This document shows positions 28,300-58,309 of a stretch of DNA of 64,000 bases, piece after piece. The translations under genes were made by a program, and so were the position numbers. The notes below the pieces were generated by a model. It saw only the letters and a program-made list of their open reading frames with translations. It did not search any database and had not been told where the DNA came from. Source of the stretch: Warburgia ugandensis (lineage: Eukaryota > Streptophyta > Magnoliopsida > Canellales > Canellaceae); NCBI GenBank assembly GCA_035236585.1, contig CP141131.1, positions 19,071,103 through 19,135,102 on the forward strand, written 5' to 3'. The stretch's first letter is position 1, and each line of letters begins with the position of its first letter.

Positions 28300-29270
28300 T
28301 CATCTTTCATCCTATTTAGGATTTAGATCTTGATCTTTTATTTTTATCAGATCTACACATTTTCTCAAAGTGATCACATCACTAGATCATTGATATCATC
28401 TTATCACATGATCTGATCCTTCTTAATCTAACCGATCAAGAAGATCTTAAGCCATTTTAGCTAATTTAAGGGCATAGATCTCAATCTATCCCAAATTATC
28501 AACATTAAGCCATTAATTTCTTATGATCTTATGATTAGATCATTATCCTCACTTATTCATAGTCTCTGATCATCCTTGATCAATCTAATCAAGAAGATCT
28601 CATGCATTTTTATTGATTTTACTAGTTTTGATGGTCAAGATCTTAAGATCAGGAAAATAAATTACATCCAACCATTTACTTATTGTAATTATGCATTTAG
28701 ATCATCATATAAACTATTTTGAAAGGTCTAATCATGCTTGATTAATCAGATCATGAAGATATATGCTCATTTTTATGAATTTTCTTCTTTTAAGGCTAGG
28801 TTTCTTAATTAACCACAGATCAGTCACTTATAACCATTGATTCCATGTTCTATAATTACAAGATCATCATTGGATCAGGATTATAAAGTCTGATCATTCC
28901 AAATTTCATTGATCAAGGATGTTCGTACCATTATCTCTTTAAAAACAAAAATTTTCATGAATTGAATTTATTATTTTATTGGTTCAGTGGGTTCTCCTCA
29001 TCAAGAGGAATCCAATCCAACTTTTCTATCTCAATTTGGAGTTAAATTAAGATCAGAACTTGGATTTTAAGATTTCATCTAGTTTTAATGGCTGATATTG
29101 ATCTTTACTATTTCTATTCAATTACTTGATCTAGAGATCCATAAATTTTATTATGATCATGGTCTATAGGGTTTTGGGACCTCTTGAATCTATCCATCAA
29201 CTCCTATTTCCATTTTAAAGTCATTTTGATCATGATCCATTATTGTTGGAATGGGTTTCAGTGATTATCA
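28300..29270. other. GATC-dense AT-rich tract within LTR1
   Basis: The tetranucleotide GATC and the words AAGATC, GATCTT and TGATC recur every few tens of bases across about 1 kb. The tract is a shared property of this LTR family, also seen at 30.9-31.3 and 53.6-53.9 kb. Confidence 0.6.
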
Positions 29271-29443
29271 CAAGTAAATACAATTAAAAACATAAATCTA
29301 ATGTCTCCATTAGATTCTAAAAAATATCAGAAATTCATAGCAACTTTCCAATCTAAAATCAGGGCCAAAATGAGCTCTCAATTGAAGAAACAAGATTTCA
29401 GTAAAAAAAAATCAAAAGCCTGGATTTGATCTGGCCATTAGAA

Positions 29444-32400
29444 TGTGTTTTAGACAATCTGGTAATGTATTTTGAAAGGCAGGGCCCTTAATCATGTAAA
29501 AAATTTTGCAAAACAAAGCAGTGATAAATTCTTTTCTTTAGAACTTGTTTTATAAAAACCAAGTCATCACTTCATACATAACATAAGTAGAGTTTTGTAC
29601 AAGATAAAATTCCATTGAAGGAATAGACTTTCATTAAATTCCAGAATCCATTCAGTGGTTCACAGTACAGCCAAATCCATTACAATACTTGTCCAAATTA
29701 CATAATCCAAACTCATATCTCACCATACAGCAAAACTCTCATTATAATACAACACTCTCAAACAAAGAAAAATACATGTCTTCAAGGGTATACCTTGAAG
29801 ATTATTCTTTTCAAGTCTTCTATCGTCTTGAGCTCCTAACTCTCCTTCCTTGTATCTGAGATATTGCAACATTTACAATATCTCAACAAGCAATGCTTGG
29901 TAGGGGATTTAAGAAGCATAATAATTGACAATGTAATTCCAATACATCATAATCCCATTATCGCTAAACATATTCATGTCTTTACCCTTTACTTTGTAAG
30001 TTATGTACATCCATATACATACATATTATACATGGGTAAATCAGTTAAATTTATGAAACTAGTCAAATATCATTCCCAACTAATATAATCAATTCTCTCC
30101 ATTATGAGAATTTAGTATTTCAGCTAATCTTACACTGAAAATTTCCCTTCTTGGGAAATATTGGTAATATACAATTACCTAGCATTTCATTATGCTAAAA
30201 CAAAAGGCATTTCACTATGCCTATTCTCATATGCATCATAGTGCAACATAATCAAAAGGGCTATCATGCTGCAGTTTGATCTGTACTAGCGCACTCGGAT
30301 AACTGCCCTGTTCACCACTGATACCACGGTGAAAAATATTATGTCACTACCCATATGGGGGGACAGGACTTTCACAGTGCTGGCCTTCCCATAATTACCC
30401 AACCCGACTTTTAGCCTCTCATAGGGCAAGGTATCATCAAATCATCAAATTTAAAGGAGCGGGTGGCCAAACCTTTATAACTCCTCTAGCATAGCATCCC
30501 CCTAGGCTTATTCCTATTAAAACAAACTCACAAGCCTCCAAGCATGTATGTCAAATAGATTTCATACATATCAAACCATCTGTCTGTTTACTTAGGGGTA
30601 AAATATCTTCCAGTTCCCTATTCACTTATAGTTTAGTCCTTAACCATCTTATATGTGTTTGGTTGGATCATAAGGTTTTCAAGGGATTTAATACAAGTAT
30701 TAACAATTACTCTTGTCAACATAAGGTCATGGGTTCAATCATTTTCATCCCATGTAAATGCATTCATCAAATCCTCCTACCTTCAAGGAGTGATCCCCTT
30801 TCCCAAATCTTCCATGATCCTGACTGATGTATGAAATCTGTACATCCATATATATTGTCAATATATATAACTTATGAGCAAATCCTATTGATCACTAGAT
30901 CTAATGTTTAGAATGATCTTTAAATCATTCATATCTAAGTATTTTCTATCTCTAAGTCTTTGTGTGTCCATCTCCTTGATCTTGATCTTTCATAGATCCA
31001 TTGATTGACAATCTACACATGTTGATAAAGATCAAGGTCCTAGATCTTTTATCATCTAGTTCTTCTTTGATCTAAGTTTAGTTATGGGATTATCCCTGAG
31101 GATAATGATATTGTTTTCCTTCCTTGAATCATCTTTGATCAAGGGTTTGGATTATCTAATCTAATGAACTATAACATGCATACTAAGTACAATATAATAT
31201 TCTTATTCTTATTGTTCTTGATCATCCAAGATCTAATGGATCTTGTCTGATCATCCTTATCTTACTTACAGTTTTTATTAGGGGTAGATAATTTACTAAC
31301 CATTTATGCTCTTACTATTATTATTCAACCAGTTAATGTTTTGCTGGTTAAAGGTAACTTATTTAAGCCTAAGCCTAGACTGCTCCTCTTATTTCCAGTT
31401 GTCTAAGGCTTACTAGCCGAATGGGTGAACACAAAGTGGTTACTTCAATCCTCATGTAAGGAGGCGTTTAGACCTCACAAACGTCAACAGAAGATAGGGG
31501 AAGAGCGAGGCTCTATTAGATAACCCCCTTAATCACTATGTTCAACATTCACTAGAGTGACCATAGCTCAACCTTTCATAAGGTTCCTATAAGCATGTTG
31601 ACCCTAAGTACCCTTTCGAATAGATTTTAATTAAGCCTATAAACATTTACAATGTCATTCATGGGGTTTATTATTGTCCTAATTTGGGCTAAAGATTTGA
31701 TAATCCTTATATTGTCCTACTAACTGTAGCCCTCACTAAGTCAAAGTCATTCCTTCCTCTTATGTGTTCATGAAACTCTATATTCCAATTAGATTACATT
31801 TTGGTGACTTATGTTCATTATATCTCAACAACTACTTAACATTTGAATCTACTAATAAAATTTGACAACAATTAAATCATAAACTTTAAAGCATGAGTCC
31901 AATATAAATTTAACAAACATTTATACTAACATGCTCCCTATGAATGTAACTCAACCTAATGGAATGAAACTATACTTAAACTAGCATGATCCTAAGTTAC
32001 AATGGCATGAAATCATACTAAAGTGCCCCTAAGATAATTAAATCTGGCACCTTATGATAACAATATAATCACATATCATGCTAAAGTCTAAAAGTTACAT
32101 TAGCATGCTTTATAACATAAATCATATTTAAGATGCTATTATCAATTAATAGAAAATGAAAATGATTATATTAATATTTTTAGAAACCTTCACTTATGAT
32201 CTAACCATTAGATCTTAGATATTTTCCTTTTTATTAAGGGTTTTAGCTATATTTAGGGGGTTTTCTTTATTAAGGTCCTCAGATCATATTGACTTGTTTT
32301 TGTCATAATCCACCATGATCTTCTTGTATTTCATCATATGAACATCCATTCCATCCATCCATAGGATTTGATCACACTTGATCTTATTGATCAAGTGGGT

Positions 32401-34157
32401 CCCTTAGTAATTTTTAGGGCTTTTCCCTTAATATCTATTAGATCTGTCCAAATAAACCATTTATATAGCTTAATTTCAATATTATATCATTATTAAGACA
32501 TATCTACAAGATTTGATCATCTCATATCTTGACGATCTTGGCAATTGAAAACTTGTTTCCTAAATACAGAAAGTTTTATTACATATTTTCTGCATTTTAT
32601 CAGTTTATAAGAAAATAGAGGTTGTAAGCTTTCCATAGCTTCTTTCTAATCTCAATTTGGAGTTCATATGACTCAAGAATCAGACCTAGAAGTTCACAGT
32701 CCATTCCTAAGGCCTAGATCTGATCTGGGCCCATTGGAATGGACGGCCCAGATTAGTCGGGTGGAATGCTCGGTTTGTCGCGCGTGTCCGTCGCAGACGA
32801 GATACGGAAGCTCCCGCCCTGGAACTCCACTGATGCACGCAGGACAACGTCGTACACCCTGTACGGCCGCGCGGGCTGCATCTCGCATGCTGTCCATGGG
32901 AATGGGTCCGATCGGGAGATCGGACAATCCATTCCGATTGTCCAATCAATACCTTCTCAATTGAAGGCCCAAAACTCCATAAAATATAGTGAAATTTTAC
33001 CCTAGGGGTTTTGGACCCTTCTGGATCGATTGGTAAGGTCAGATTTTTCATCTGAGCCTTCAATCGTCTTGAATTTAAGGTTCTGTTATTTACTTTATTT
33101 TTATCATTTTTCACCCAATTAAAATTACAGTAAAGTATAAATTTCATCAAACAATAATAACAATGTCCAGGAAGTAGTTTCACCTACCTAATTGGAGAAA
33201 AATGTAGGTTATATGGTCCAATTTAAAAGAATACCCGATTTGATGATAATATAGCCAAAGATCCACCTTTATTGCGATTTCTGTTGTTTGAACTGTTGGA
33301 TCTCAAAATTTCTTTGGGGTTTTTGTAGCTAAGGTATGGTAGGAAGTTTTTGATGGTGGGATTTGTGATATTGGATCTAGAATAGAGTGCCTAATTGAAT
33401 TTAGGTCTCTTGTTCCAATCTAGAGAGAAAAGGAAAATGAAAATAGGGAGATTGCTTGAGAGTTTTGGGTTTTTGGGGATGGATCTAAGTCTAAATTTGC
33501 AGGGAAAGTGAAGACAATTTTGTGGGAATTTTATGAACATTTTTGGAGGATTTTTGGGGTTGTATTTATAGGCATTTTGGGTCTTCTTTCGTGATGATGT
33601 GTAATGATGATGGTTAATTTATTATTATTAATTTAGCATTGGATTCTCCCATTCTCCACTTTCTTCCCCAAGACCAGCTGGTAGGGTTTGACCATGAATT
33701 CATGTGGGCTGGTCATAGGATTCGTTTTTGGGTTCTTTGTGGGCACCATGTGGGCCCCACATGGTGTAAAAAGACCATTTTGCCCTTTATATATAAAAAA
33801 TTAGGGTTTATTCCCATGATCTCGGAATTGAGCGTACTTAGTGGCGTTGGATTCATATTTCTCAGAAAATTCTAAATTTTGATGTCTCAGAGTTTGATTT
33901 TTGGGTAAAATTACTATTTTAGCCTTTTGTCCAAAAATGAAGAAAATTAAAGATTTTTCATCCGAATTCAGAATTTGTCGTGCTTACAGTCATTCTGAAG
34001 AGTTTGCTAAGTTTAATTTCAATTGTACATGTCTTATTCCTTAATTATACTTTTATAAGAAGTATATTCTAAATAACCCTAATATTTCAGCCCAAAATTT
34101 CTGAAACTCAAATTTTATTGATTTTCTCAATCAATTACTAAATTTGGGGTTATTACA
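29444..34157 (-). repeat. 3' LTR (LTR A) of the TR-GAG-type element, ~4.7 kb
   Basis: On the minus strand it starts TGTAATAACCCC (34157) next to the polypurine tract. It is collinear with LTR B for nearly its whole length. The outermost ~20 bases at 29444 do not match the outer end of LTR B. Contains the family hairpin (29857-29885), a GC-rich segment (32750-32935) and a TATAAATA box (33563-33570, minus). Confidence 0.88.
33563..33570 (-). promoter_or_regulatory. LTR A TATA box
   Basis: TATAAATA on the minus strand, about 590 bp inside the LTR start. The same octamer lies at the corresponding place in LTR B (42537-42544) and LTR2 (45399-45406). Confidence 0.6.
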
Positions 34158-34170
34158 ATCTTCCCCCCTT
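34158..34170 (-). other. Polypurine tract of the TR-GAG-type element
   Basis: On the minus strand AAGGGGGGAAGA ends just before the TGTAATAACC start of LTR A and is preceded by AATTTCGAGGACAAAATT. That lead-in is common just before the 3' LTR of plant chromovirus (Tekay-like) elements. Confidence 0.85.
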
Positions 34171-37045
34171 ACAATAATTTTGTCCTCGAAATTTGTAATA
34201 CAACTCACTTAGGATTTTTCACTATTCTTTCATAGCCTTACACATGTGGCCTTGCCACTTATGGAAATCCTATTTCCTTTCATTCCTTTCTCATACTACC
34301 TCCTTCTCAAAGGTTAAAATGCTCATCCATGACTAACCTTACTAATGCACTATATACTAAAGCTAGTTCTTGCTAGAATTTTCGAAAAAGGGTTAATAAC
34401 TCTTATTGAGTTATCCCTTTTGTTTCAAAACCTTCCATTTCACTTGGTAGTAATTTTCACCAATCTTTCCATACTTCACAATTTTCCATTATACCTTCTA
34501 TTGCTCATACTCATTCTTTTTCAACATATAAAGTTTTGACATAGCTTTCCTACTATGTATAGTCCTTAGACTACCTACAATAATATATTGATTAGATTCT
34601 ATAACTTCAACTATTGTTCTTTGTAACAACCTTCCAATCTTTGGAAGTAATTTTCTCTTTCCTTATTCTTCCATTATTTGGAAGTGAAATACTTTATTTC
34701 TTCTCTACAGTTCATACTTCTTTACTATTTCCTTCTATTGACAACTTCTTTTCAAATCCTGTCATTGAATAATAGTTTCCTTGTAATGACTCTTTCCTCA
34801 TTCCTATCCATTGTTTTTGTAACACTCTTTGAGTGCCATTTTATTCATAATACTTGACTTTCTACATTTTTCCTTCCAAGATAGTGTCATTTAAATCTAC
34901 ATATATATTCCTGATCCTCTTTTCTTATCTCTTTCTCATATTCAGAACATTCTTACAATCTATGATAATATTTATCTCTTTTCCTTTCATATATATATTT
35001 ATATGTCATAGGCTTCAAAATTTCTAGATTTTGTATTTCCTCATGCTTTTTTCAAGCATACCTCATAGCCTCTATCATATCATACTAACCCTTTATTTGC
35101 AATATTCTTGATAATTCCAATTAAAAGAGTCCATATTGACTTTGTAATCATCCCTTCTCAAGTCTTTACAAACTCCATAATTTATCATCTATTTTTCAAT
35201 TATCAACAATCTCTTATCAACTCATTTAGGATTTATGTAACCAATGGCAAAATTTCACTAAAAGAATGTCCTTATGTTATAAAATCAGTAAGAGATATAT
35301 TTCTCTAATTGTCATTGTCATTTCATATTTTGATCTCATATTCCACCTTTGTTGGGGTCAAATTCCGTGCTATCCTTAAAATTTATATAACCTAAACTTT
35401 GCTTTCTTCAATCACATGTACATTTATAAGACAAGTTTTGTAAGTGTCTAACATATATCCCATGAATGCTCTTGATTTCTTGAAATCTATTTCCATATAT
35501 CATTACCCATCCAATATATCAACTTCATGAACATCTGTTATCTAACTCATAGAACTTCAAAATTTGTTTTGGTTTTATACTTTGATTTTGCATTTCCAAT
35601 TCCCAATTAATAATAAATTTGAAAATGCTCATCCTTATAGAGAAAAAGGATACTTAATTTCCTCAAAATCATTTATGTTTAATGCATCCTTATATTGATT
35701 CTTCATTTTTCTTTTCCTAAAGGAAATTTGTTACTTTCATAATGTAAATTGCTATAATCACTCCATATCCTTAAAATTTGTTCTTTCAACTCATTCAAAT
35801 AATTTGATGTTATTTTCCTCAACTATTATAGATATTTTCTCATTCAATCTCATATAAGATTGAAAATCTTCAAACTATCTTAAAATTTTTGACCACTTAT
35901 TTCTCCAACAATTTGGATTCATAACTCATTCACAATCATCTTTAAACTTAAATTTAACAACCAATATTTGTTTTCATTTCTCATGTTTTATTTCACCTTT
36001 CCTCCAAAAATATATTTCCCCTTACTATATTTCTTAAATCTTTCAATATCACCAACTCCATCATGTAAGTGGAATTAATATCTCTATTCATATTTAGCTC
36101 TTCACTTGCCTTGATCAATAAGATGTACTCCTCTTCATGATAATCAATGACTATATTTTCCTAATCAATGTCACCATCTAATACCAAACGTACTTCTCTT
36201 TACGATAGTCCCAAAATTATTTTCAATAGTACCAAAGTTATCATGTCTCTAATCCTTGAAAATCCTCTAGTACTAATTTCCACGATGATTTGTCATACCT
36301 TTATAATTTCTAACTTGGTGATTTCATAATTGTTGTACTATATATAGGGCTATAATTTATTTGTTAACCATATATTCTCATGGTTTAATTGTCTTTCTTA
36401 ATAAGTTTGGGATCATATTTTTGTCCCTTTAACATATCTAACTCTCTTTTTCCATGTCCTTTTATTCTAATTTCAAAGATCATCTCTTCATGTTCTAAAA
36501 TTTTATCATTTCTCCACTAAATCCTTTGCCTCACTAATTTTGGAGAAAAATACTTGCTTAACTCCTTACTCATATTTATTTCAAACTATTCTCATTTACA
36601 AAATTTGAAATTTCTCACCTATCTCCTTAAATTTCTTTCAAGTCATATCCTCACTATTTTGATGATTACTTCCTTTTGACTAATTTTCATAATACTTATA
36701 TATGTAGCAATTATAACTCTTACACTTGTATTTATTTATATATTTATTATACATTTTGATTTTTTATTATTATCATATTTTCTAATTTATCACTTCTTTC
36801 TCTTTATCTCCATTCCTTACATACTTCACTTAGTAATGGTTATATACATACTTCACTTAATAATGGTTATATACATATTAGTATTAGTGTACTTTGTTTA
36901 TACATATGTATGTTTACTCAGGATTTTAGGTTTGACCTGAACATCATACCTTACATCTATTGAAATTTTTCCTTATTGATTTCTATATCTTACTATTCCC
37001 TCTATTGGAATTCTTACTTACTAAGTAGTATTTCTAGTCCTTTCA
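34171..37045 (-). other. AT-rich internal region, no recognisable pol
   Basis: About 2.9 kb, very AT-rich on both strands, with only short open frames. No protease, RT, RNase H or integrase motif is recognisable. Either pol was lost and replaced or it has decayed beyond reading by eye. Confidence 0.6.
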
Positions 37046-38193
37046 CTAAGTAATACCTTCAATCACCGCATTGGATGGTCCAACTTGGCCGTCAGTGATG
37101 GCGAATACCCTTCCTTGGTGTCGAGGGGCAATTTCTAGTTTTGCCTTTGTGACCGCCAATGGTTTGGTACAGTAGGTGGTGGTATGTCCATACTCCCCAC
37201 AATTATGGCACTTGATTGGAAACCGTTGTGGTTGTTGTTGCATAGGTCGAGGGCAGATATTGCCTTGGTGGAATTTTCTGCATCTTGGACATGATTGTCA
37301 ATTTTGCCTTGGTGCATTGTTCCTTTGATTTCCTTGGGGCTTAAAATTGTTCCAAGGCCTTTTATTCTTCTAGAAAGGCCTTGGGTTATTGTTTCCTCCT
37401 CCACTGAACTTGGTAGTTTGACCTTTTTGTATTCTTCTTCAAACTTGGAAGCCATTTCCACACATTTTGGTAAGGTAGTGGGTTTAGTACCCAGCACCTT
37501 TATTTTCAGCCCTGGGTGCAGCCCTTCTATGAATCGATTCACAGTATGTGTTTCTGTGTTACACACATGAGTCACGAATCTCCTTAATTGTGTGAACTTG
37601 TTATCATAGTCCACCACCGACATATTCCTTTGCCTTAGGTCCAAAAACTCTATCAACTTGCTTTCTTGTACATGAGAAGGGAAATATTTATGGTTAAATA
37701 CTTCCTTAAATTCCTCCCGTGTAGTATCTTCAGAATTTGAGAAGGTGTTGTTAGCTGATCTCCACCAAAACACAGCTTCTTGTTTGAATAAGTAGGTTGC
37801 AAATTTCACCTTCAACTCTGGAGGAGTACGTAGTGCACCAAAAGTCCTTTCTACTTCATATATCCACTCCTCTGCCTTCTCAGCTTCACCCTTGCCATTA
37901 TACATTGTAGTCATCTTTTGAAATCTCTTCATCATTTTATCAACTTTTTCTGGTGCTAATGGAGATTTTTCAACTTCTTCACTTGGAACAAGGGAAGATT
38001 GCCCTTGTACTAGTGTGGGAGTAGCTGGTGTTGGTGTTGGTGTTGTATGTCTCACTTCAGGCTGAGCTTGAGCCTGTGTACTTGGTATTTCTACAAGAGG
38101 TGATGAACCTTGGGTTTGTTGCAGGTGAGGGAGGAGGTTCCTCAACACCCTTGTCATCATTTCTTCCACATTGCCCATGGTTACTCTCTTCAT
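37046..38193 (-). pseudogene. gag region of the TR-GAG-type element
   Basis: Encodes a Gypsy-type gag: a Pro/Gln/Thr-rich N-terminal part, a Retrotrans_gag domain (AEEWIYEVERTFGAL, FKQEAVFWW, LRQRNMSVVDYDNKFTQL, FIEGLHPGLK) and a CCHC zinc knuckle (CHNCGEYGHTTTYC). In living relatives gag forms the virus-like particle and the knuckle binds the RNA. This copy is close to whole, with about one break. The element has no visible pol, so it would have depended on partner elements. The family call rests on the gag domain, knuckle, primer site and polypurine context. Confidence 0.88.
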
Positions 38194-38362
38194 ATTGTCC
38201 TCTAGAGTATTTTGAGCTGCCTACCTTGAGGCTCTCTTTGGTGGCATCTGCTCATAAACCAAAATTTCTATCAATCCTCTATACAACTACTTCTATCTTA
38301 ATCTATAGTTGGATTATAATCTCTCTTTTGGACATATTTATACTGTACTGTGATTGGATGAA

Positions 38363-38376
38363 TGGCTCTGACACCA
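38363..38376 (-). other. Primer-binding site, tRNA-iMet type
   Basis: On the minus strand TGGTGTCAGAGCCA follows the LTR B end (TTATCACA) after two bases and matches the usual initiator-Met primer site TGGTATCAGAGCCA at 13 of 14 positions. It sets the element's orientation. Confidence 0.88.
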
Positions 38377-38378
38377 AC

Positions 38379-41300
38379 TGTGATAACCTGGGTTTTTGTA
38401 ACACGTTTTGTAATGTATTTTGAAAGGCAAGGCCCTTAATCATGTAAAATTTTTTGCAAAACAAAGCAGCGAAAATTATTTTCTTTAGAACTTGTTTTAT
38501 AAAACCCAAGTCATCACTTCATATATAACATAAGTAGTGTTTTGTACAAGATAAAATTCCATTGAAGGAATAGACTTTCATTAAATTCCAGAATCCATCC
38601 AGTGGTTCACAGTACAGCCAAATCCATTACAATACTTGTCCAAATTACATAATCCAAACTCATATCTCACCATACAACAAAACTCTCATTATAATACAAC
38701 ACTCTCAAACAAAGAAAAATATATGTCTTCAAGGGTATACCTTGAAGATTATTCTCTTCAAGTCTTCTATCGTCTTGATCTCCTAACTCTCCTTCCCTGT
38801 ATCTGAGATATTGCAACATTTACAATATCTCAGCAAGCAATGCTTGGTAGGGGATTCAAGAAGCATAATAATTGACAATGTAATTCCAATACATCATAAT
38901 CCCATTATCGCTAAACATATTCATGTCTTTACCCTTTACTTTGTAAGTTATGTACATCCATATACATACATATTATACATGGGTAAATTAGTTAAATTTA
39001 TGAAACTAATCAAATATCGTTCCCAACTAAGATAATCAATTCTCTCCATTATGAGAATTTAGTATTTCAGCTAATCTTACACTGAAAATTTCCCTTCTTG
39101 GAAAATATTGGTAATATACAATTACCTAGCATTTCATTATGCTAAAACACAAGGCATTTCACTATGCCTATTCTCATATGCATCATAGTGCAAAATAATC
39201 AAAAGGGCTACCATGCTGCAGTTTGATCTGTATTAGCACACTCGGATAACTGCCCTATTCACCACTGATACCACGGTGGAAAATATTATGTCACTGCCCA
39301 TATGGGGGGATAGGACTTTCACAGTGGTGGCCTTACCATAATTGCCCCACCCGACTTTTAGCCTCTCATAGGGCAAGGTATCATCAAATCATCAAATTTA
39401 AAGGAGCGGGTGGCCAAATCCTTATAACTCCTCTAGCATAGCATCCCCCTAGGCTTATTCCTATTAAAACAAATACACAAGCCTCCAAGCTTGCATGTAA
39501 AATAGATTTCATACATATCAGACTATCTGTCTATTTACATAGGGCTGAAATATCTTCTAGTTCCCTATTCACTTACAATCTAGTCCTTAACCATCTTATA
39601 TGGGTTTGGTTGGATCATAAGGTTTTCAAGGGATTTAATACAAGTATTAACAATTACTCTTGTCAACATAAGGTCATGGGTTCAATCATTTTCATCCCAT
39701 GTAAATGCATTCATCAAATCCTCCTACCTTCAAGGAGTGATCCCCTTTCCCAAATCTTCCATGATCCTAGCTGATGTATGAAATATGTACATTCATACAT
39801 ATTGTCAATATATATAACTTATGAGCAAATCCTATTGATCACTAGATCTGATGTTTAGAATGATCTTTAAATCATTCATATCTAAGTATTTTCTATCTCT
39901 AAGTCTTTGTGTGTCCATCTCCTTGATCTTGATCTTTCATAGATCCATTGATTGACAATCTACACATGTTGATAAAGATCAAGGTCCTAGATCTTTTATC
40001 ATCTAGCTCTTCTTTGATCTAAGTTCATTTATTGGATTATCCCTAAGGAGAATGATCTTGTTTTCCTTCCTTGAATCATCTTTGATCAAGTGTTTGGATT
40101 ATCTAATCTAATGAACTATAACATGCATACTAAGTACAATATAATATTCTTATTCTTATTGTTCTTGATCATCCAAGATTTAATGGATCTTGTTTGATCA
40201 TCCTTATCTTACTTACAGTTTTTATTAGGGGTAGGTAATTTACTAACCATTTATGCTCTTACTATTATTATTCAACCAGTTAATGTTTTGTTGGTTGAAG
40301 GTAACTTATTTAAGCCTAAGTCTAGACTGCTCCTCTTATTTCCAGTTGTCTAAGGCTTACTAGTTGAATGGGTGAACACAAAGTGGTTACTTCAATCCTC
40401 ATGTAAGGAGGCATTTAGACCTCACAAACATCAACAAAAGGTAGGGGAAGAGCGAGGCTCTATTAGATAACCCCCTTAACCACCATGTTCAACATTCACT
40501 AGAGTGATCATAGCTTAACCTTTCATAAGGTTCCTATAAGCATGTTGACCCTAAGTACTCTTTCTAATAGATTTTAATTAAGTCCATGAACATTTAGAAT
40601 GTCATTCATGGGGTTTATTATTGTCCTAATTTGGGCTAAGGATTTGATAATCCTTATAGTGTCCTACTAATTATAGCCCTTACTAATGTTAAGTCAAAGT
40701 CATTCCTTCCTCTTATGTGTTCATGAAACTCTAATTTCCAAATAGATTACATTTTGGTGACTTATGCTCATTATATCTCAACAACTACTTAACATTTGAA
40801 TCTACTAATAAAATTTGACAACAATTAAATCATAAACTTTAAAGCATGAGTTCAATATAAATTTAACAAACATTTATACTAACATGCTCCTTATGAATGT
40901 AACTCAACCTAATAGAATAAAACTATACTTAAACTAGCATGATCCTAAGTTACAATGGCATGAAATCATACTAAAGTGCCCCTAAGATAATTAAATCTAG
41001 CACCCTATGATAACAATATAATCACATATCATGCTAAAGTCTAAAAGTTACACTAGCATGCTTTACAACATAAATCATATTTAAAATGCTATTATTGATT
41101 AATAGAAAATAAAAATGATTATATTAATATTTTTAGAAATCTTCACTTATGATCCAACCATTAGATCTTAGATATTTTCCTTTTTATTAAGGGTTTTAGC
41201 TATATTTAGGGGGTTTTCTTTATTAAGGTCCAAAGATCATATTGACTTGTTTTTGTCATAATCCATCCATGATCTTCTTGTATTTCATCATATCAACATC

Positions 41301-43131
41301 CATTCCGTCCATCCATAGGATCCGATCACACTTGATCTTATTGATCAAGTGGGTCCCTTTGTAATTTTTAGGGCTTTTCCACCATAGTGGGTAAATCCCT
41401 TAATATCTATTAGATCTGTCCAAATAAACCATTTATATAACTTAATTTCAATATTATATCATTATTAAGACATATCTACAAGATCTGGTCATCTCATATC
41501 TTGAAGATCTTGGCAATTGGAAACTTGTTTCCTAAATACAGAAAGTTTTATTATATATTTTCTCTATTTTATCATTTCATAAGAAAATAGAGGTTGTAAG
41601 CTTTCCATAGCCTCTTTCTGATCTCAATTTGGAGTTCATATGTCTCCAGAATCAGATCTGGAAGTTCACAGTCCATTCCTAAGGCCTAGATATGATCTTG
41701 GCCCATTGGAATGGACGACCCAGATTAGTCAGGCGAAACGCTTAGTTTGTTACGCGCGTCTGTTGCTGATGAGATCGGAAGCTCCCACCTAAGACGTCCA
41801 GGGACGTGTGCGGGACAACGTAGCACACACTGCGCGGGCGCGCGTGTGGTGTCTCGCATGCCGTCCATGGGACTGGGTCTGATCGGGAGATCGGACGGTC
41901 CATTTGGACTGTCCCATCAATCCCTTCTTACTTGAAGGCCCAAAACTCCATAAAATATAGTGAAAACTTTACCCTAGGGATTTTGGACCCTTCTAGATCG
42001 ATTGGTAAGGTCAGATTTTTCATCTGAGCCTTCAATCGTCCTGAATTTAAGGTTCTGTTATTTACTTTATTTTTATCATTTTTCACCCAATTAAAATTAC
42101 AGTAAAGTATAAATTTCATCAAACAATAATAACAATGTCCAAGAAGTAGTTTCACCTACCTGATTGGAGAAAAATGTAGGTTATAAGGTCCAATTTAAAA
42201 GAATACCTGATTTGATGATAATATAGCCAAAGATTCACCTTTCTTGGGATTTCCGTTGTTTGAACCGTTGAATCTCAAAATTTCTTTAGGGGTTTTGTAG
42301 CTAAGGTATAGTAGGAAGTTTTTGACGGTAGGATTTGTGATGTTGGATTTGGAACAAAGTACCTAATTGAATTTAGGTCTCTTGTTCCAATTTAGAGAGA
42401 GAAAAAGAAAATGAAAAGAGGGATATTTCTTGAAAGTTTTGGGTTTTCGGGGATGGATCTAGGTCTAAATTTGTAGGGAAAGTGAAGATAATTTTTTGAA
42501 AATTTTATGAACATTTTTGGAGGATTTTTGGGGTTGTATTTATAGGCATTTTGGGTCTTCTTTCATGCTGATGTGTAATGATGTTGGTTAATTTTTTTAT
42601 TATTAATTTAGCATTGGATTCTCCCATTCTTCACTTTCTTCCCCAAGACCAGCTAGTATGGTTTGACCCATGACTTCACGTGGTCTGGTTATAGGATTCG
42701 TTTTTGGGTCCCTTGTGGGCCCTATGTGGGCCCCACATGGTGTAAAAATATCATTTTGCCCTTTATATATAAAAATTAGTGTTTATTCCCTTGATCTCGA
42801 AATTGAGCGTACTTAGTGGTATTGGATTTGTATTTCTCAGCACATTCTAAATTTTGATGTCTTAGATTTTGATTTTTGGGTAAAATTACTATTTTACCCT
42901 TTTGTCCAAAAATGAAGAAAATTAAGGATTTTCATCCGTATTCAGAATTTGTCATGCTTATAGTCATTTTGAAGTGTATGCCAAGTTTAATTTCAATTGT
43001 ATATGTCTTATTCCTTGATTATACTTTTATAAGAAATATATTCTAAATAACCCTAATATTTCAGCCCAAAATTTCTGAAACTCAAATTTTTTTAATTTTC
43101 TCAATTAATTACTAAAATTGGGGTTGTTACA
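38379..43131 (-). repeat. 5' LTR (LTR B) of the TR-GAG-type element, 4753 bp
   Basis: On the plus strand it runs TGTGATAACC to GTTGTTACA, the TG...CA termini expected of an LTR read on the minus strand. Contains the family hairpin (38804-38832), a GC-rich segment (41725-41925) and TATAAATA (42537-42544, minus). Confidence 0.92.
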
Positions 43132-44815
<1,684 letters not shown>

Positions 44816-45398
44816 ATAATAGTGTAATAATCTCAATTTTTGTAATTGATTGAGAAAATCAATAAAGTTTGAGTTTCAAAAAATTTGGGCTGAAATATTA
44901 GGACTATTTAGAATGTACTTCTTATAGAAGTATAATCAAGGGATAAGACATGTATAATTGAAATTAAACTTAGCGAACCCTTCAGAACGATTATAAGCAC
45001 GACAAATTCTAAATTCGGATAAAAAATCCTTAATTTTCTTTATTTTATGGACAAAAGGGTAAAATAGTAATTTTACCCATAATCAAGATTTGAGACATCA
45101 AAATTTAGAATGTACTAAGAAATACGAATCCAATGCCACTATGTACTCTCAATTCCGAGATCATGGGAATAAACCGTAATTTTTATACATAAAGGCCAAA
45201 ATGGTCTTTTTACACTATGTGGGGCCCACAAGGGACCTAAAAAGGAATCCAATGACCAACCCATGTGAAATCATGGGTGAAACCACTACTAGCTGGTAGT
45301 GGAGAAAAAGGTGGTGGTGGAGAATCCAAAGCTAATTGAATAATAAAAAGAATAAACCATAATCATTACACATAATCATGAAAAATACCCAAAATGCC

Positions 45399-45406
45399 TA
45401 TAAATA
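45399..45406 (+). promoter_or_regulatory. LTR2 TATA box
   Basis: TATAAATA in the context ATGCCTATAAATACACCCC, conserved with LTR A and B. LTR3 inserted about 60 bp downstream, near the expected transcript start. Confidence 0.55.
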
Positions 45407-45460
45407 CACCCCAAAAAATCTTCTAAAATTGTCCATAAAATTCTCACAAAATTATCTTGG

Positions 45461-45465
45461 CTTCC
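45461..45465. repeat. Left target-site duplication of LTR3
   Basis: CTTCC here and at 51140-51144, exact, bracketing TGTGATGACC...GTCATTACA. Confidence 0.9.
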
Positions 45466-45817
45466 TGTGATGACCTGGGTTTTATATGATGCAAATTTGA
45501 TAATAAGGCGAGATATCTTGTTTTATAAATACGAAATGCATGAAAATCTTTTTCGTTTTGGAAAACAAGCTTTTCCATAAAACCCCGAGTGTCAAAACAC
45601 ATTTTTCCAATTATCTAGCCATGGCAAAGTTTTAAATCAAAATTATTCCCAAGAAAGTGTTAGTCACAACCTCAGCTATAGAGAGTAACTACAATCAAGT
45701 AACATTGAAAGATAAGGTAGGGGTTTACTTACTTGTACTTAGTCTAGGTGTCTTCTGTCACAGGCGTACCTTGTCCTAAAGTGTTTACTTTGTGTCCGAA
45801 AAATGTTGAGGATTGGG

Positions 45818-45836
45818 TGAGTATATACTATACTCA
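45818..45836. other. LTR3 hairpin
   Basis: Arms TGAGTATA and TATACTCA with a 3-nt loop, in the same relative position as the hairpin of the other LTRs but with a different sequence. Confidence 0.7.
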
Positions 45837-46212
45837 GTAGGAGTCCATCACTACTAGTTTTACAATGCATGCTATGTTTAAAATCATATGCTCTTTCAAA
45901 ACATGTGCATGGTTGAACACTCATGTTCAAGATCGGAATTAAAAACCATTGTCAAACTGAAATACTAACGACTTAAAGGATCACATAATCCAAATCGAAA
46001 GTATCATATATATTATAAACATAATGATATGCATAAGATGCTCAACTGAATCCAACTCATGGGTATCTAGTATGATATGGTCGACCAACCTCATATCATG
46101 CCATATGCAATGCAAGTAAGTCCACGAAACCATAGGGCCCAACTATGGCAACGACCTCGCCACCGTGTGGTCCCCGGGTGCCTTAGGACACAACGTCATA
46201 GCCTCCACGGGG

Positions 46213-49200
46213 CATATGACACATCGACCCAGTGCCGTGACACCAGTGGTAGCCCCCTATACCACATGCAGTCAACGTAGGGACATGCCCTTTTTGGGCG
46301 TGGTACCCATTCCACCTAGTAGTGGTAGAGGCTGGGTGGCCAACCCAGACCCCTCGGCATAGCGCTCACGAGCTTACTAGCCCAAATCATATAAGATCAA
46401 ACAAGCGAAAAACCTCTTTTTCAAAACCTGTCCTCTTTGGGTCCCTCACAACTGCCTACCCAGCGTCTTTCGGGAACTCCAGCGTCTTTTGGTAACCCTC
46501 AAGGACATGCAACTTTTCAAGAACTCAATGTTCACAAATCATGCGAGATATGCAATTGTTTGTAAAACATGTATATGCATAATGTATTTGTCATATGCAT
46601 GCTGAATTCGTTCATAAGCTAATCAAGTCATAAAATAAGTCATGCTACACATCAACCCAGTGCCGTGACACAAGTGGTAGCCCCCTGTACCACATGCAGT
46701 CGACGTAGGGACATGCCCTTTTTGGGCGTGGTACCCATTCCACCTAGTAGTGGTAGAGGCTGGGTGGCCAACCCAGACCCTCGGCATAGCACCCACGAGT
46801 TTACTAGCCCAAATCATATAAGATCAAACAAGCGAAAAACCTCTTTTTCAAAACCTGTCCTCTTTGGGTCCCTCACAACCGCACAGCCCTCACAACTGCC
46901 TACCCAGCGTCTTTTGGGAACTCCAGCGTCTTTTGGTAACCCTCAAGGACATGCAATTTTTCAAGAACTCAATGTTCACAAATCATGCGAGATATGCAAT
47001 TGTTTGCAAAACATGTATATGCATAATGTATTTGTCATATGCATGCTGAATTTGTTCATAAGCTAATCAAGTCATAAAATAAGTCATGCTACACATCAAC
47101 CTAGTGCCGTGACACAAGTGGTAGCCCCCTGTACCACATGTAGTCGACGTAGGGACATGCCCTTTTTGGGCTTGGTACCCATTCCACCTAGTAGTGGTAG
47201 AGGCTGGGTGGCCAACCCAGACCCCTCGGCATAGCGCCCACGAGCTTACTAGCCCAAATCATATAAGATCAAACAAGCGAAAAACCTCTTTTTCAAAACC
47301 TGTCCTCTTTGGGTCCCTCACAACTGCACGACCCTCACAACTGCCTACCCAGCGTCTTTTGGGAACTCTAGCGTCTTTTGGTAACCCTCAAGGACATGCA
47401 ACTTTTCAAGAACTAAATGTTCACAAATCATGCGAGATATGCAATTGTTTGCAAAACATTTATATGCATAATGCATTTGTCATATGCATGCTGAATTCGT
47501 TCATAAGCTAATCAAGTCATAAAATAAGTCATGCTACACATCAACCCAGTGCCGTGACACAAGTGGTAGTCCCCTGTACCACATGCAGTCGACGTAGGGA
47601 CATGCTCTTTTTGGGCGTGGTACCCATTCCACCTAGTAGTGGTAGAGGCTGGGTGGCGAACCCAGACCCCTCGGCATAGCACCCACGAGCTTACTAGCCC
47701 AAATCATATAAGATCAAACAAGCGAAAAACCTCTTTTTCAAAACCTGTCCTCTTTGGGTCCCTCACAACTGCCCGAGCCTCACAACTACCTACCCAGCGT
47801 CTTTTGGGAACTCCAGTGTCTTTTGGTAACCCTCAAGGACATGCAACTTTTCAAGAACTCAATGTTCACAAATCATGTGAGATATGCAATTGTTTGCCAA
47901 ACATGTATATGCATAATGTATTTGTCATATGCATGCTGAATTCGTTCATAAGCTAATCAAGTCATAAAATAAGTCATGCTACACATCAACCCAGTGCCGT
48001 GACACAAGTGGTAGCCCCCTGTACCACATGCAGTCGACGTAGGGACATGCCCTTTTTGGGCGTGGTACCCATTCCACCTAGTAGTGGTAGAGGCTGGGTG
48101 GCCAACCCAGACCCTCGGCATAGCACCCACGAGTTTACTAGCCCAAATCATATAAGATCAAACAAGCGAAAAACCTCTTTTTCAAAACCTGTCCTCTTTG
48201 GGTCCCTCACAACTGCCTGGCCCTCACAACTGCCTACCCAGCGTCTTTTGGGAACTCCAGCGTCTTTTGGTAACCCTCAAGGACATGCAATTTTTCAAGA
48301 ACTCAATGTTCACAAATCATGCGAGATATGCAATTGTTTGCCAAACATGTATATGCATAATGTATTTGTCATATGCATGCTGAATTTGTTCATAAGCTAA
48401 TCAAGTCATAAAATAAGTCATGCTACACATCGACCCAGTGCCGTGACACAAGTGGTAGCCCCCTGTACCACATGTAGTCGACGTAGGGACATGCCCTTTT
48501 TGGGCTTGGTACCAATTCCACCTAGTAGTGGTAGAGGCTGGGTGGCCAACCCAGACCCCTCGGCATAGCGCCCACGAGCTTACTAGCCCAAATCATATAA
48601 GATCAAACAAGCGAAAAACCTCTTTTTCAAAACCTGTCCTCTTTGGGTCCCTCACAACTGCACGACCCTCACAACTGCCTACCCAACGTCTTTTGGGAAC
48701 TCCAGCGTCTTTTGGTAACCCTCAAGGACATGCAACTTTTCAAGAACTCAATGTTCACAAATCATGCGAGATATGCAATTGTTTGCCAAACATGTATATG
48801 CATAATGTATTTGTCATATGCATGCTGAATTCGTTCATAAGCTAATCAAGTCATAAAATAAGTCATGCTACACATCAACCCAGTGCCGTGACACCAGTGG
48901 TAGTCCCCTGTACCACATGCAGTCGACGTAGGGACATGCTCTTTTTGGGCGTGGTACCCATTCCACCTAGTAGTGGTAGAGGCTAGGTGGCGAACCCAGA
49001 CCCCTCGACATAGCACCCACGAGCTTACTAGCCCAAATCATATAAGATCAAACAAGCGAAAAACCTCTTTTTCAAAACCTGTCCTCTTTGGGTCCCTCAC
49101 AACTGCCCGAGCCTCACAACTGCCTACCCAACGTCTTTTGGGAACTCCAGCGTCTTTTGGTAACCCTCAAGGACATGCAACTTTTCAAGAACTCAATGTT

Positions 49201-49753
49201 CACAAATCATGCGAGATATGCAATTGTTTGCCAAACATGTATATGCATAATGTATTTGTCATATGCATGCTAAATTCGTTCATAAGCTAATCAAGTCATA
49301 AAATAAGTCATGCTACACATCAACCCAGTGCCGTGACACCAGTGGTAGCCCCCTGTACCACATGTAGTCGACGTAGGGACATGCTCTTTTTGGGCGTGGT
49401 ACCCATTCCACCTAGTAGTGGTAGAGGCTGGGTGGCGAACCCAGACCCCTCGACATAGCACCCACGAGTTTACTAGCCCAAATCATATAAGATCAAACAA
49501 GCGAAAAACCTCTTTTTCAAAACCTGTCCTCCTTGGGTCCCTCACAACTGCCTGGCCCTCACAACTGCCTACCCAGCGTCTTTTGGGAACTCCAGTGTCT
49601 TTTGGTAACCCTCAAGGACATGCAATTTTTCAAGAACTCAATGTTCACAAATCATGCGAGATATGCAATTGTTTGCAAAACATGTATATGCATAATGTAT
49701 TTGTCATATGCATGCTGAATTCGTTCATAAGCTAATCAAGTCATAAAATAAGT
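46213..49753 (+). repeat. Tandem array of eight ~445-bp repeats with trimer higher-order structure
   Basis: Unit starts are 46213 (428 bp), 46641 (444), 47085 (445), 47530 (445), 47975 (444), 48419 (445), 48864 (445) and 49309 (445). Shared variants pair unit 2 with 5, 3 with 6 and 4 with 7, so a 1334-bp trimer was duplicated. The last unit is a hybrid. The recurrent 105- and 133-codon open frames are repeats of the same segment and are not treated as genes. Confidence 0.96.
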
Positions 49754-50229
49754 CATGCTAGACAAATTAGATAACTTATACTTTAAAGCATGCAGTCTCA
49801 AAACAATCAAGGCTCTTTTTAAAAGTCTAGTAGCGATAGAGCACCTACCTGGCTAGGTCGAGCTAATCCCCTTGTCCTCGTATGCTCCTGAATATGGTTT
49901 GGGGAATCAAGGTTAGTTTGGCCCATCTTTCATAGGTTTTAGAGTGGTTGGTCTTACTACTTAGGCATTAAGGTTTCATCCCCATGCCTATGGGTGTCCT
50001 AAAGTCCTACTTGGGCCTTTGTATCATCAGTTTTCCAAAGGTCTAGTAGCCACGCACCACCATCCCATTCTAAGGGTTGTGCCTACCTTATATTGGGCCT
50101 TGATAAGGGATTTTATAGTTTGGGTGTGTCCACGTCGTCGATACAGACACAATGCCTTTCACGGCGCCTCAATCAGAGCCCTAGATCTCAAGTTATAAGC
50201 TTTTTAGTATCACATGTACATAAAGGCCT

Positions 50230-50520
50230 TTAAGAGGTGGAATCCCAGAACGCTAACGCGTTGCGCGTCAGCGGCATGTGCCCCAGCGGGCGCATTTGCA
50301 AACGCGCTGGATTCGCGCCCGTCCTTTTCATTTGCGGGTGCGTCCACGGACGCGCCCGCTAGTTTCTCTCGAATGCGAACGATGTGTTTCATCCAGTGGG
50401 GAGTGTCTTATTCGTTGGGGGACCGGGGCGTCCCAAGGACGCCCTGGTTCGACCCTGTCGAACCAGTGCGGCCCAGGGATCGTCCCTGAGTCCTTTGTGA
50501 CTCTCCAGGGCCCGTTTTTG
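50230..50520. other. CpG-rich segment of LTR3
   Basis: Dense in CG (AACGCGTTGCGCGTCAGCG, GGACGCGCCCGC) in an otherwise AT-rich region, just downstream of the minus-strand TATA box. Confidence 0.75.
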
Positions 50521-50704
50521 CATGAATTTTCATGCAAAAACTTAGGGAAACTTAGCCTAGGACTAATGGGAAGACAGGTTTGGAGGGATCTTGGGCATAC
50601 CTGGCTCATTGTTGGGTTTTTCTCCACGTTTCTCCTCTTGGTTGCTTCTCCAAAACGGGTTTTTCCCAAGCTTTCTGGCTGCCATTAGAGGCACCCAAGA
50701 GCTC

Positions 50705-50712
50705 TATTTATA
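50705..50712 (-). promoter_or_regulatory. LTR3 TATA box
   Basis: TATAAATA on the minus strand (CTCTATAAATAGAGC), about 430 bp inside the LTR start. Confidence 0.5.
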
Positions 50713-51144
50713 GAGCTATAAGAGGGTTCTCGAGGGGCTCTCACCGCCCTTGAATGGCGGTGGAGAAACCTCCAGAATGGTGGTGATTTCTCCTCCAAAC
50801 ACCGCCATTCTAGAACCCTCTAGGAGGTTGAAGAAAGGGGGTGCCTGTATCAAAATGGGCCCCTGTGTTTTTCAGGCTAAATCTGTTTTTTAGTAAAAAT
50901 TACATTTTTGCCCCTGAACTTCAAAGGGCCATAACTTGCTCATTTGAACTCTGTTTTGGGTGATTTTGGTCTTGTTGGATTCCTTTTTCCTATACACACC
51001 TAATGGTACCATTTTCAGGACCAAATTTTTGGGTTCAGTCAAGGTGAATAGTGAAATGACCAAAATACCCTTATTTCCAAAAAGTGAACTTTTCATTGCT
51101 AACTTGGGATTTCAATGTTACAAAATTGGAGTCATTACACTTCC

Positions 51145-54100
51145 CCTGAAAAACTAGGCATAGATCCATTCCCAAAATCCCAAAACTCCTAAAAGATCCC
51201 TTTCTTTCATTTTCTCTCTCCTCTCTCTAGATTGGAACAAGAGACCTAAATTCAATTAGGCACTCTGCTCCAGATCAAATATCACATATCACACTGTATA
51301 AAATTTCCTACCACACGTTAGCTACAAAACGCCTAAAGAAATTTCAAGATCCAACGGCTCAAACAACGAAAATCACAAGACAAGTGGATCTTGTGCTATC
51401 TTATCATCAAATTGGTATTCTCTTAATTTGGACTATATAACCAATGTTTTTCTCCAATCAGGTAGGTGGAACTACTTCCTAGACACATTTTTTGTTGTTT
51501 AATGAAAATTTTATTTTACTATAATTTGATTTGGGTGAAAAATTGTAAAAATAGAGTAAAGATCAAAACCTTCAATTAATGACGATTGAGGGCTCAGATG
51601 AAAAATCTGACCCTTCCAATCGATCTGAAAGGGTCCAAAACCCCTAGGGTAAAATTTTCACGAAATTATATTAAGTTTTGGAACCTCAATTGAGAGGGAT
51701 TGATTGGACAGTCCAGAACAAACCGTCTGATCTCCCGATCGAATCAGGTTCCCTAGGACAGCGTGCAAAATGCCACATAGAAACGTGGCACGCAAAAGCA
51801 TTTTTGCAAGCGTGCCGCGTGTACGATATCATCCCAACGGGACGACTACGCTTGAGCGCTGGTTATAGGGCGAGCGTGTCACGCGTTCGTCCTGGTGACA
51901 TAGGCGCCACCCTACTAGTTCTGCCTGAACGATCTAGGCCGTCCGTTCCGATGGGCCCAGATCATATTTAGACCCTAGGAATGCACTGTGAACTTTTGAA
52001 CTCAATTCAGGAGTCATATGGACTCCAAATTGAGATCAGAAAGAAGCTATGGAAATTGTACAACCTCTAGTTTCTTATGAAATGATAAAATGGAGAAAAT
52101 ATCGTATGAAACTTTCTGTATTTAGGAAATAAGTTTTCAATTTCCAAGATCTTCAAGATATGAGGTGATCAGATCTTAGTAATCTGTTTTACTAATGACA
52201 TACTATTGAAATAAAGTGATATATATGGTTTATTTGGACATATCTGAGATATGTTAAGGGATCTACCTATTATGGTAGAAAAACCCTAAAAATACAAAGG
52301 GACCCACTTGATCAATGAGATCAAGTGTGATCAGATCCTTGGGATGGATTGAATGAATGTTAATATAATGAAATCCAAGGAGATCATGGATTGAATATTA
52401 CAACAACAAAGCAAAATGATCTTTGGACCTTAATGAAGAAAAACCCCTAAATGTAATTAAAACCCTTAATTAAAAGGAAAAGATCTAAGATCTAATGGTT
52501 GGATCATAAGAAAAGGTTTCTAAAAATATTAATGTAATTAGTTTCATTTTCTATTATTTGATAATGGCATTTTAAATGTGATTTATGTTATAAAGCATGC
52601 TAGTGCGACTTTTAGACTTTAGCATGATATGTGATTAGATTGTTATAATAGGTTGCTATATTTAATTATCCTAGGGGCATGTTAGTGTGATTTTATAGAA
52701 ATGTAACTTAGGACCAAGTTAGTATGATTTCATGCTATTATAACTTAGGACCATGCTATGATTTCATGTAAGATTATACTATAGTATGAGATTGTACCTT
52801 AGGTCCATGTTAGTTTAAATTGAGTTATTAAGGTATATTAGTTGAAAATCATACTAGTGTAATTTTAAGTACCTTATATCATTATCATTAAGTTGTTCAA
52901 TTATGTAGTTTTATGCTTTTAATTTATAATTCATTTATGGTTAAATTTCATTAGTAGATCTACTTGTTATGAGATGAAGAGCATAAAACACCAAAATTGG
53001 AATCTAATGAGAAAGTAGAGTTTCATGACATAAATAAGAGTGGATTATTTTGAACTTAATTAGTAAGGGCTATAGTTAGTAGGACAATATAAGGATTATC
53101 AAATCCTTAGCCCAAACTAGGAGAATAATAAACCCCATGAATGACATTGTAAATGTTCATAGACTTAATTAAAATCAAGTAGAAAGAGTACTTAGGGTCA
53201 ATATGCTTGTAGGAACCTTATGAAAGGTTGAACTAAGGTCACTCTAGTGAATGTTGAACATAGTGGTTGAGGAGGGTTGTCTAATAGAGCCTCGCTCTTC
53301 CCCTACCTTCCGTTGACATTTGTGAGGTCTAAACACCTCCTTACATGAGGATTAAAGTAACCACTTTATGTTCACCCATTTAGCTAGTAAGCCTTAGCCA
53401 ATTGAAAATAAGAGGAGCAGTCTAGACTTAGGCTGAAATAAGTTACCTTCAACCAGTAAAACATTAACTGGTTGAATAATAATAGTAAGAGCATAAAAGG
53501 TTAGTAAATTATTTAACCTTAATAAAAACTGTAAGTTAGATAAGGATGATCAAACAAGATCCATTAGATCTTGAATGATCAAGAATAATAAGAATAAGAA
53601 TATTGTATTGTATTTAGTATGCATATTTATTAGTATGCATGTTATAGATCAAATCTAGTTCATTAGATTAGATAATCCAAACCCTTGATCAAAGATGATT
53701 CAAGGAAGAAAACCAAGATCATCCTCCTTAGGGATGATCCAAGAACTGAACTTAGATCAAAGAAGAACTAGATGATAAAAGATCTAGGACCTTGATCTTT
53801 ATCAATAAGTGTAGATTGTCGATCAAAGGATCTATGAAAGATCAAGATCAAGGAGATGGACACACAAAGACTTAGAGATAGAAAATACTTAGATATGAAT
53901 GATTTAAAGATCATTCTAAACATCAAATCTAGTGATCAATAGGATTGTTCATAATTTATATATATTGATAGTATGTATGGATGTACAGATTACATACATT
54001 AGTTAGGATCATGGAAGATCTGGCAAAAGGGATCACTACTTGAAGGTAGGAGGATTTGATGAATGCATTTACATGAGATGTACATGATTGAACCCATGAC

Positions 54101-55403
54101 CTTATGTTGACAAGAGTAATGTTAATACTTGTATTAAATCCCTTGAAACCCTTATGATCCAACCAAACACATATAAAATGGTTAAAGACTAGACTCTAAG
54201 TGAATAGGAAACTAGAAGATATTTCAGCCCTAAGTAAACAAATAGATTGTCTGGTATGTATGAAATCTATTTTACATGCAAGCTTGGAGGCTTGTGACTT
54301 TGTTTTAATTGGCATAAGCCTGGGGGATGCTATGCTAGAGGAGTTATGAGGGTTTGGCCACATGCTTCTTGAAATTTGATGATTTGATGATACCTTGCCC
54401 TATGAGAGGCTAAAAGTCGGGTGGGGCAATTATGGGAAGGCCACCACTGTGAAAGTCCTGTCTCCCCATATGGGTAGTGACATAATATTTTCCACCATGG
54501 TATCAATGGTGAGTAGGGCAGTTATCCGAGCGCACTAGTACGGATCGAGGCAAAGATGGTAGCCCTTTGATTATTTTGCACTATGATGCATATGAGAGTA
54601 GGCATAGTAAAATGCCTTATGTTTTAGCATAATGAAATGCTAGGTAATTATATATTACCAATATTTCCCTAGAAGGAAAATTTCCAGTGTAGGATTAACT
54701 GAAATATTGAATTCTCATAATGGAGAGAATTGATCAGCTTAGTTGGGAATGATATTTGACTACTTTCATAAATTTAACTTATTTACCCATGTATAGTATG
54801 TATGTATATGGATGTACATATATTACAAAGTAAAGAGTAGAGACATGAATATGTTTAGGGATAACGGGATTATGAAGTATTAGAATTATATTGTCAATTA
54901 TTATGCTTCTTGAATCCCCTACCAAGCATTGATTGCTGAGATATTGTAAATGTTGCAATGTTTACAATATCTCACATACAAGGAAGGAGAGTTAAGGAGC
55001 TCATGACGATAGAAGACTTGAGGAGAATAATCTTCAGGGTATACCCCTTGACGACATGTATTTTGCTTTGTTTGACAGTATTGTATTGTAATGAGAGTTT
55101 CATTGTATGGTGCGCTTTGAGTTTTGTATTATGTAATTTGGACAAGTATTGTAATGGATTTGGCTGTATTGTGAACCACTAGATAGATTTTGGAATTTAA
55201 TAAAAGAATATTCTTTCAATGGAATTTTATCTTGTACAAAATTCTATTTATGTTATGTATGAAGTGATGACTTGGGTTTTACAAAATAAGTTCTAAAGAA
55301 AAGAATTTTTGCTGCTTTGTTTTTGCCAATTTTTTTTACTATTGAGGGCCCTGCCTTTTAAAAATATATTACAAAATGTGTTACAAAAACCTAGGTCATC
55401 ACA
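51145..55403 (+). mobile_element. Solo LTR (LTR2), right part
   Basis: Resumes directly after the CTTCC duplication (CCTGAAAAACTAGGC, then the CTAGATTGGAACAAGAGACC block) and runs as the reverse complement of LTR A/B to CCTAGGTCATCACA at 55403. Contains the GC-rich segment (about 51700-51960) and the hairpin (54937-54974). No coding parts. Confidence 0.85.
54937..54974. other. LTR2 hairpin, 14-bp perfect arms
   Basis: TGAGATATTGTAAA and TTTACAATATCTCA with a 10-nt loop that differs in sequence from the LTR1 loop. Confidence 0.85.
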
Positions 55404-55408
55404 ATTAG

Positions 55409-58309
<2,901 letters not shown>

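Follow-up and report, generated by a model that had tools for sequence, protein, structure and literature searches.

A solo LTR of a Ty3/gypsy element in the genome of Warburgia ugandensis contains eight tandem repeats of about 445 bp, three of which have been duplicated as a block, and the same insertion carries five such repeats in a segmental duplicate of the locus. In our best reading, which we consider very probable, the array would have originated by tandem duplication within the LTR, would then have grown and been reshuffled where it lay through unequal recombination and conversion, and would later have been copied together with its surroundings. The features discussed below belong to one stretch of 64,000 nucleotides, hereafter called the window, and are collected in table 1.

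Table 1. Position of the array, its units and the surrounding features (window coordinates unless contig C6 is given)
Feature	Position	Strand	Remarks
Window	C6:19071103-19135102		Genome of 1,122,538,268 bases, 14 contigs
Segmental duplication	25761..57635	.	Other copy C6:65908525-65938838, holding the five-unit array
Older repeat copy hosting the LTR insertion	44823..55406	-	Related stretches without insertion: 29462-34159, 38410-43133
Target-site duplication CTTCC, left copy	45461..45465	.	
Solo LTR, 5,674 bp	45466..51139	-	Family labelled, with caution, chromovirus-type Ty3/gypsy; ends and length, sense from full-length relative L021
Tandem array, eight units	46219..49753	.	Wholly inside the solo LTR, 3.5 kb
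Unit 1	46219..46640	.	Without 17-bp block (derived deletion); pairs with sister unit 1
First trimer, units 2-3-4 (types A-B-C)	46641..47974	.	444+445+445 bp
Second trimer, units 5-6-7 (types A-B-C)	47975..49308	.	444+445+445 bp; 22 differences from first trimer
Unit 8	49309..49753	.	Nearest unit 7 on the left, unit 5 on the right
TATA-box-like word TATAAAT	50706..50712	-	427 bp into the LTR; longer word in the LTR at 6/6 loci viewed
Target-site duplication CTTCC, right copy	51140..51144	.	CCTCC in sister locus

The insertion had been taken for a solo LTR in the preliminary description, and its ends and surroundings bear this out. Since it has TG...CA ends, is bordered on both sides by the 5-bp duplication CTTCC and is missing from two paralogous stretches of the window, in which the joined flanks align at 84% (251/300) and 83% (246/296), it is a solo LTR, without internal region, nested in an older repeat. 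The element sense corresponds to the minus strand, with the LTR starting with TGTAATGACTCC at 51139 and ending with GGTCATCACA at 45466. The two insertion-free stretches are direct copies of 4.7 kb that are 94% alike and flank a stretch with a gag-like frame of 361 aa (37135-38220, minus strand); the pair may represent the very long LTRs of a Ty3/gypsy element. A comparison of the window with Rfam gave no match at gathering score.

Relatives of this LTR in the same genome are about 2.57 kb long and contain one unit each. One pair of such single-unit LTRs (L021/L022) encloses 4,595 bp with pieces of gag, protease, reverse transcriptase, RNase H and integrase, and the window LTR is thus homologous to LTRs that flank a gag-pol region. 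Read in element sense, the internal part begins with GATGGTATCAAAGC, which we take to be the usual initiator-methionine primer site, and has a purine-rich stretch at its end. Gag (PF03732), protease (PF08284), reverse transcriptase (PF00078), RNase H (PF17917) and the integrase zinc domain (PF17921) were recognised above cut-off in separate pieces; the integrase core reached 24.6 bits in the L021 internal pieces, below its cut-off of 32.6, and a chromodomain match (PF00385) in the final piece of one L021 element scored 24.5 bits (cut-off 25.1, E 2.6e-5). As these two domains are sub-cut-off, the family is labelled chromovirus-type with caution; its lineage is presumably Tekay-like. Two single-unit copies, L010 and L016, also resemble solo LTRs; their target duplications, read by eye, are CCACT and GATTC, respectively.

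The units of the array follow one another with start spacings of 444/445/445/444/445/445/445, and TRF delineates a 445-bp array of 7.5 copies with 96% matches at 46443-49764; both agree with the eight repeats of about 445 bp described previously within one LTR, save that unit homology begins at 46219 instead of 46213. Of the 1,334 sites of the trimer, 22 (1.65%) differ between its two copies, none of them among the first 239 bases. At a lag of three, units 2 and 5 show 5 differences, units 3 and 6 show 9, units 4 and 7 show 8 and units 5 and 8 show 10 (units 1 and 4, 19), whereas units 2-8 average 14.2 differences between direct neighbours (lag 1) and 15.6 at lag 2. A lag-3 mean as low or lower is found in 16 of the 5,040 orders of units 2-8, a permutation from which unit 1 was omitted after it had been viewed, and in 176 of the 40,320 orders of all eight units; if any of lags 1-4 is counted, the proportion becomes 64 of the 5,040 orders of units 2-8. 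Phylogenetic support is 98/97 for units 4+7 and 90/73 for units 3+6, while units 2+5 do not resolve as a pair. Unit lengths show the same phase, since one 1-bp deletion is common to units 2 and 5. The proposal that a 1334-bp trimer was duplicated as a block is upheld by the permutations, the tree and the periodicity of the pairwise matrix, even if the duplication is real but modest, with 98.3% identity between trimers versus about 97% between units. The block copies resemble each other more than adjacent units do, as expected of a higher-order repeat; there being only two of them, they represent one block duplication rather than a propagated higher-order array.

It is improbable that no real trimer exists and that a few units came to resemble one another by chance through independent homogenisation. 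The permutation value is moderate once corrected and one of the three pairs does not resolve in the tree, but all three successive pairs, and units 5 and 8 as well, are closest at lag 3, units 4+7 are strongly supported, and the lengths are in phase (though two units of the sister array described below have the same 1-bp deletion). Variant words by which paired units had been recognised are indeed present in those units, but unit 8 also holds words of units 4/7 and 2/5. One of these words, AATTTTTCAAG, had been regarded as a private variant; being the state of all nine aligned single-unit copies, it is a shared retention. In the 22-row alignment, C at column 371 occurs only in units 4-7 (47530-49308), across the trimer phase; this looks like conversion between neighbours, and requires either conversion or recurrent mutation.

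The sister array, at C6:65.93 Mb, consists of five units of 421, 444, 445, 444 and 445 bp (S1-S5, those of the window being W1-W8). It lies in a segment of about 30.3 kb on the same contig, some 47 Mb from the window, the ends given in table 1 being approximate. The sister locus (C6:65925000-65934900) aligns with the window throughout and shows the same insertion, which shares its flanks and left target site with that in the window and has one change in the right target site; for the stretch 65913501-65924999 we infer collinearity with the window. Searched with up to 3 mismatches, a 32-mer of the insertion edge occurs at two places in the assembly, the window and the sister locus. The sister array is hence the same insertion, carried by a segmental duplication of about 30 kb. 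An independent insertion that inherited its array was considered as well and ruled out, since insertion edge and flanks are shared. Sequences beyond both segment ends are unrelated, and probes placed there matched nothing or repeats only. The ends are blunt and do not coincide with repeat ends; a check for target duplications and inverted ends found none beyond 4-bp matches. Outside the insert the two copies differ by 0.6-1.5% substitutions, and the LTR part diverges more, by 1.7-3.3%.

Divergence of 1-3% can occur between alleles of an outcrossing plant, and the distance between the two loci falls within that range; the second trimer or the second locus could then be an assembly duplicate or a misplaced allele. 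We judge such an artefact very improbable, as the sister segment lies far away on the same contig and continues into different sequence past both ends. An assembly error in the trimer duplication itself also appears unlikely, given the differences between the trimers and the related array that was assembled elsewhere.

A 34-base probe of the family, allowing up to 3 mismatches, found 2,388 places in the genome (1,188 + 1,200, array units included; controls 0). All 22 of the other unit copies inspected are single and lie between the same LTR flanks, in 19 fetched loci from the 51 best matches (40 of 4,778 candidates scored), a sample weighted towards close relatives of the array. All 13 array units have three states in common, none of them the majority state among nine single copies, and they separate from these nine with 95/87 support in the tree, so the array probably derives from one LTR copy. 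A 32-mer spanning the junction between units, also with up to 3 mismatches, gave 11 matches, 7 in the window and 4 in the sister array (0 reverse, 0 control). Two spaced-word tests for neighbours 421-451 bp apart, which need exact words, were consistent with this distribution: all 7 matches of the first fell in the window array, the word being mutated in the sister array, which it misses, and all 9 of the second in the two arrays (7 window, 2 sister, the latter representing 2 of the 4 sister neighbour pairs). These three pattern searches found no free array in the 1.12-Gb assembly; they would miss arrays that are collapsed, strongly divergent, or built with another junction or spacing. Satellite DNA is taken here to mean long free arrays, of tens of kb or more, that are independent of their source element; this array is not satellite DNA by that definition, because it measures 3.5 kb, lies wholly inside an LTR and has its junction at two assembly places only. 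It is a local, minisatellite-like expansion in immobile DNA, with no sign of function.

Growth of tandem arrays inside Ty3/gypsy elements into satellites is reported in PMC7004042, PMC3648361, PMC9659126 and PMC12477314. Tandem duplication and in-place growth inside an LTR is a known process. Like the window array, the Ogre arrays of Lathyrus sativus are short and lie inside dispersed Ty3/gypsy elements, where some have expanded; they occupy, however, the 3' untranslated region of numerous Ogre copies, and nine of them gave rise to satellites (PMC7004042), whereas here the LTR of one insertion is involved and no free array was found. Maize CRM1TR and CRM4TR resemble our arrays in consisting wholly of a retrotransposon LTR region and in showing local homogenisation that differs between loci, for which gene conversion and unequal exchange have been proposed; their monomers of about 700-1,400 nt span LTR and UTR, are pericentromeric and number 187 and 39 at full length (PMC3648361), as opposed to the present units of 445 bp, which lie within the LTR and number 8 and 5. 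Potato Sobo, likewise a tandem repeat derived from an LTR, that of Sore1, is a satellite (PMC9659126), while the window array is short and confined to one insertion and its duplicate. Literature searches on repeats inside LTRs returned mainly work on animal retroviruses; among the papers retrieved in these and other searches we recognised none as describing this array, a negative result of little weight.

Such precedents, namely the LTR-derived satellites of potato (Sobo, and the St3 and St18 repeats; PMC9659126) and the CRM-derived arrays of maize (PMC3648361), lend some plausibility to the notion that a real satellite exists elsewhere in the genome, with this array as its seed or as an outlier of it. 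Even though assemblies can collapse or omit satellites, the restriction of all pattern matches to two copies of one insertion makes this the least credible of the alternatives, and we would give it hardly any weight. The earlier suggestion that this is the step by which an LTR can seed a satellite describes something possible in principle, but no free array was found in the assembly; the genome-wide search that had been proposed returned the junction only at the two copies of the insertion.

The first unit of the window array had been considered ancestral for want of a 17-bp block. This block is present in 21 of the 22 single-unit LTR copies (L024b being the exception), and the first units of both arrays lack it and have two derived states in common; its loss is thus derived and preceded the separation of the two loci, and the ancestral status of unit 1 was ruled out. 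In the exceptional single-unit copy (L024 8722-9129), the same block appears to have been lost independently. The hybrid nature of unit 8, also proposed previously, is suggestive only: unit 8 is closest to unit 7 on the left (3 differences in columns 1-157) and to unit 5 on the right (4 differences), but its best chimera, which reduces the differences from 10 to 7, is equalled in 1,666 of 5,000 permutations. The same applies to S5 at the end of the sister array (15 to 12 differences, equalled in 1,159 of 5,000 permutations); neither end unit is significant in this test.

Window and sister array share unit types, with W1+S1 supported at 95/93 and W3+W6+S3 at 88/88, S5 remaining unplaced, and the deletion at column 138 is common to W2, W5, S2 and S4. 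Types 1, A and B would consequently predate the segmental duplication. Type C is known only from the window array; because it resembles A on the left (4 differences between units 4 and 5) and B on the right (6 differences between units 4 and 6), it may have arisen when a B unit converted part of an A unit. The two loci differ at 153 of 13,642 sites (1.12%) outside the insert and at 58 of 2,132 (2.72%) in the LTR outside the array; lying between these values, the divergence of the trimers suggests that the trimer step took place at about the time of the segmental duplication. Divergences and Fisher tests do not cleanly order the two events, the trimers differing from the LTR outside the array at p 0.048 and from the rest of the segment, in the opposite direction, at p 0.107.

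We infer the following history, including its recombination mechanism, the order of its events and an ancestral array of five units. An element of the family with single-unit LTRs of about 2.5 kb would have inserted into the older repeat and become a solo LTR. A piece of about 440 bp would then have been tandemly duplicated within it: single copies have the left edge ...CATATG/ACACATC and the right edge ...CATGCT/AAACAAAT, the array junction reads CATGCT/ACACATC, and as the joined ends share about 1 bp, the joining was probably illegitimate. Unequal homologous recombination and gene conversion would have enlarged and reordered the array at its site, until the locus, by then with several units (types 1, A and B), was carried by segmental duplication to another place on the same chromosome. 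In the simplest order, the ancestor was 1-A-B-A-E, its fourth unit was converted to C in the window copy, and a single duplication of the block A-B-C then raised the number of units in that copy from five to eight; the unit counts of the sister loci do differ by exactly three. Points against this reading are the modest trimer signal, the C at column 371 and the non-significant chimeric end units, and the five-unit model in particular has against it that unit 8 and S5, its counterparts, differ at 17 sites.

The sister array may have a phase of its own, of two units (1-A-B-A-B'), which is based on S2/S4, with 10 differences and two exclusive sites, and, weakly, on S3/S5 (15 differences, with one site that is shared only within the arrays, yet also present in some single copies). 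Perhaps, then, the two arrays gained their block structure separately, with a three-unit phase in the window (A-B-C twice), a proposal that we put forward tentatively and would not prefer. Its joint corollary, that arrays of only five to eight units outside any satellite acquire higher-order structure independently and rapidly, is to be read with the same reserve.

The array could also have been made before insertion. In that event it would have been born in reverse transcription, by strand slippage or template switching between packaged RNAs, and inserted with several units, later changes being chromosomal; such a source of tandem repeats is discussed for Ogre elements in PMC7004042. The array is older than the segmental duplication, which would suit this origin, and the conserved TATA word lies about 960 bp upstream in element sense, so that the unit would be in genomic RNA; if the word is a promoter, the array presumably belongs to the transcribed R/U5 part. 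No other insertion bearing an array was found, yet a lone progeny copy would leave none, and the presence of 8 versus 5 units at copies of one insertion implies that at least the later change was chromosomal. We therefore regard an origin in reverse transcription as unlikely, though less so than the other alternatives to tandem duplication and growth within the resident LTR.

Short arrays inside mobile elements are regarded as a stage in the origin of satellites. The value of this locus is that of a small natural experiment: one genome holds the insertion, its segmental copy and thousands of single-unit relatives, so that the steps by which an array is born and first grows can be polarised and put in order. 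The locus shows block duplication beginning in arrays of five to eight units, and shows that an array of this kind need not yield a satellite.

Other repeats in the window include a perfect tandem duplication of 65 bp at 5973-6103 (TRF, 100% matches) and, at 13432-13785, 34-bp repeats in two arrays that form a duplicated block (13432-13569 and 13626-13763, 98.6% alike). Inverted, decayed copies at 5736-9780 and 20433-22802, which are 74-76% alike, read like possible remains of a LINE reverse transcriptase.
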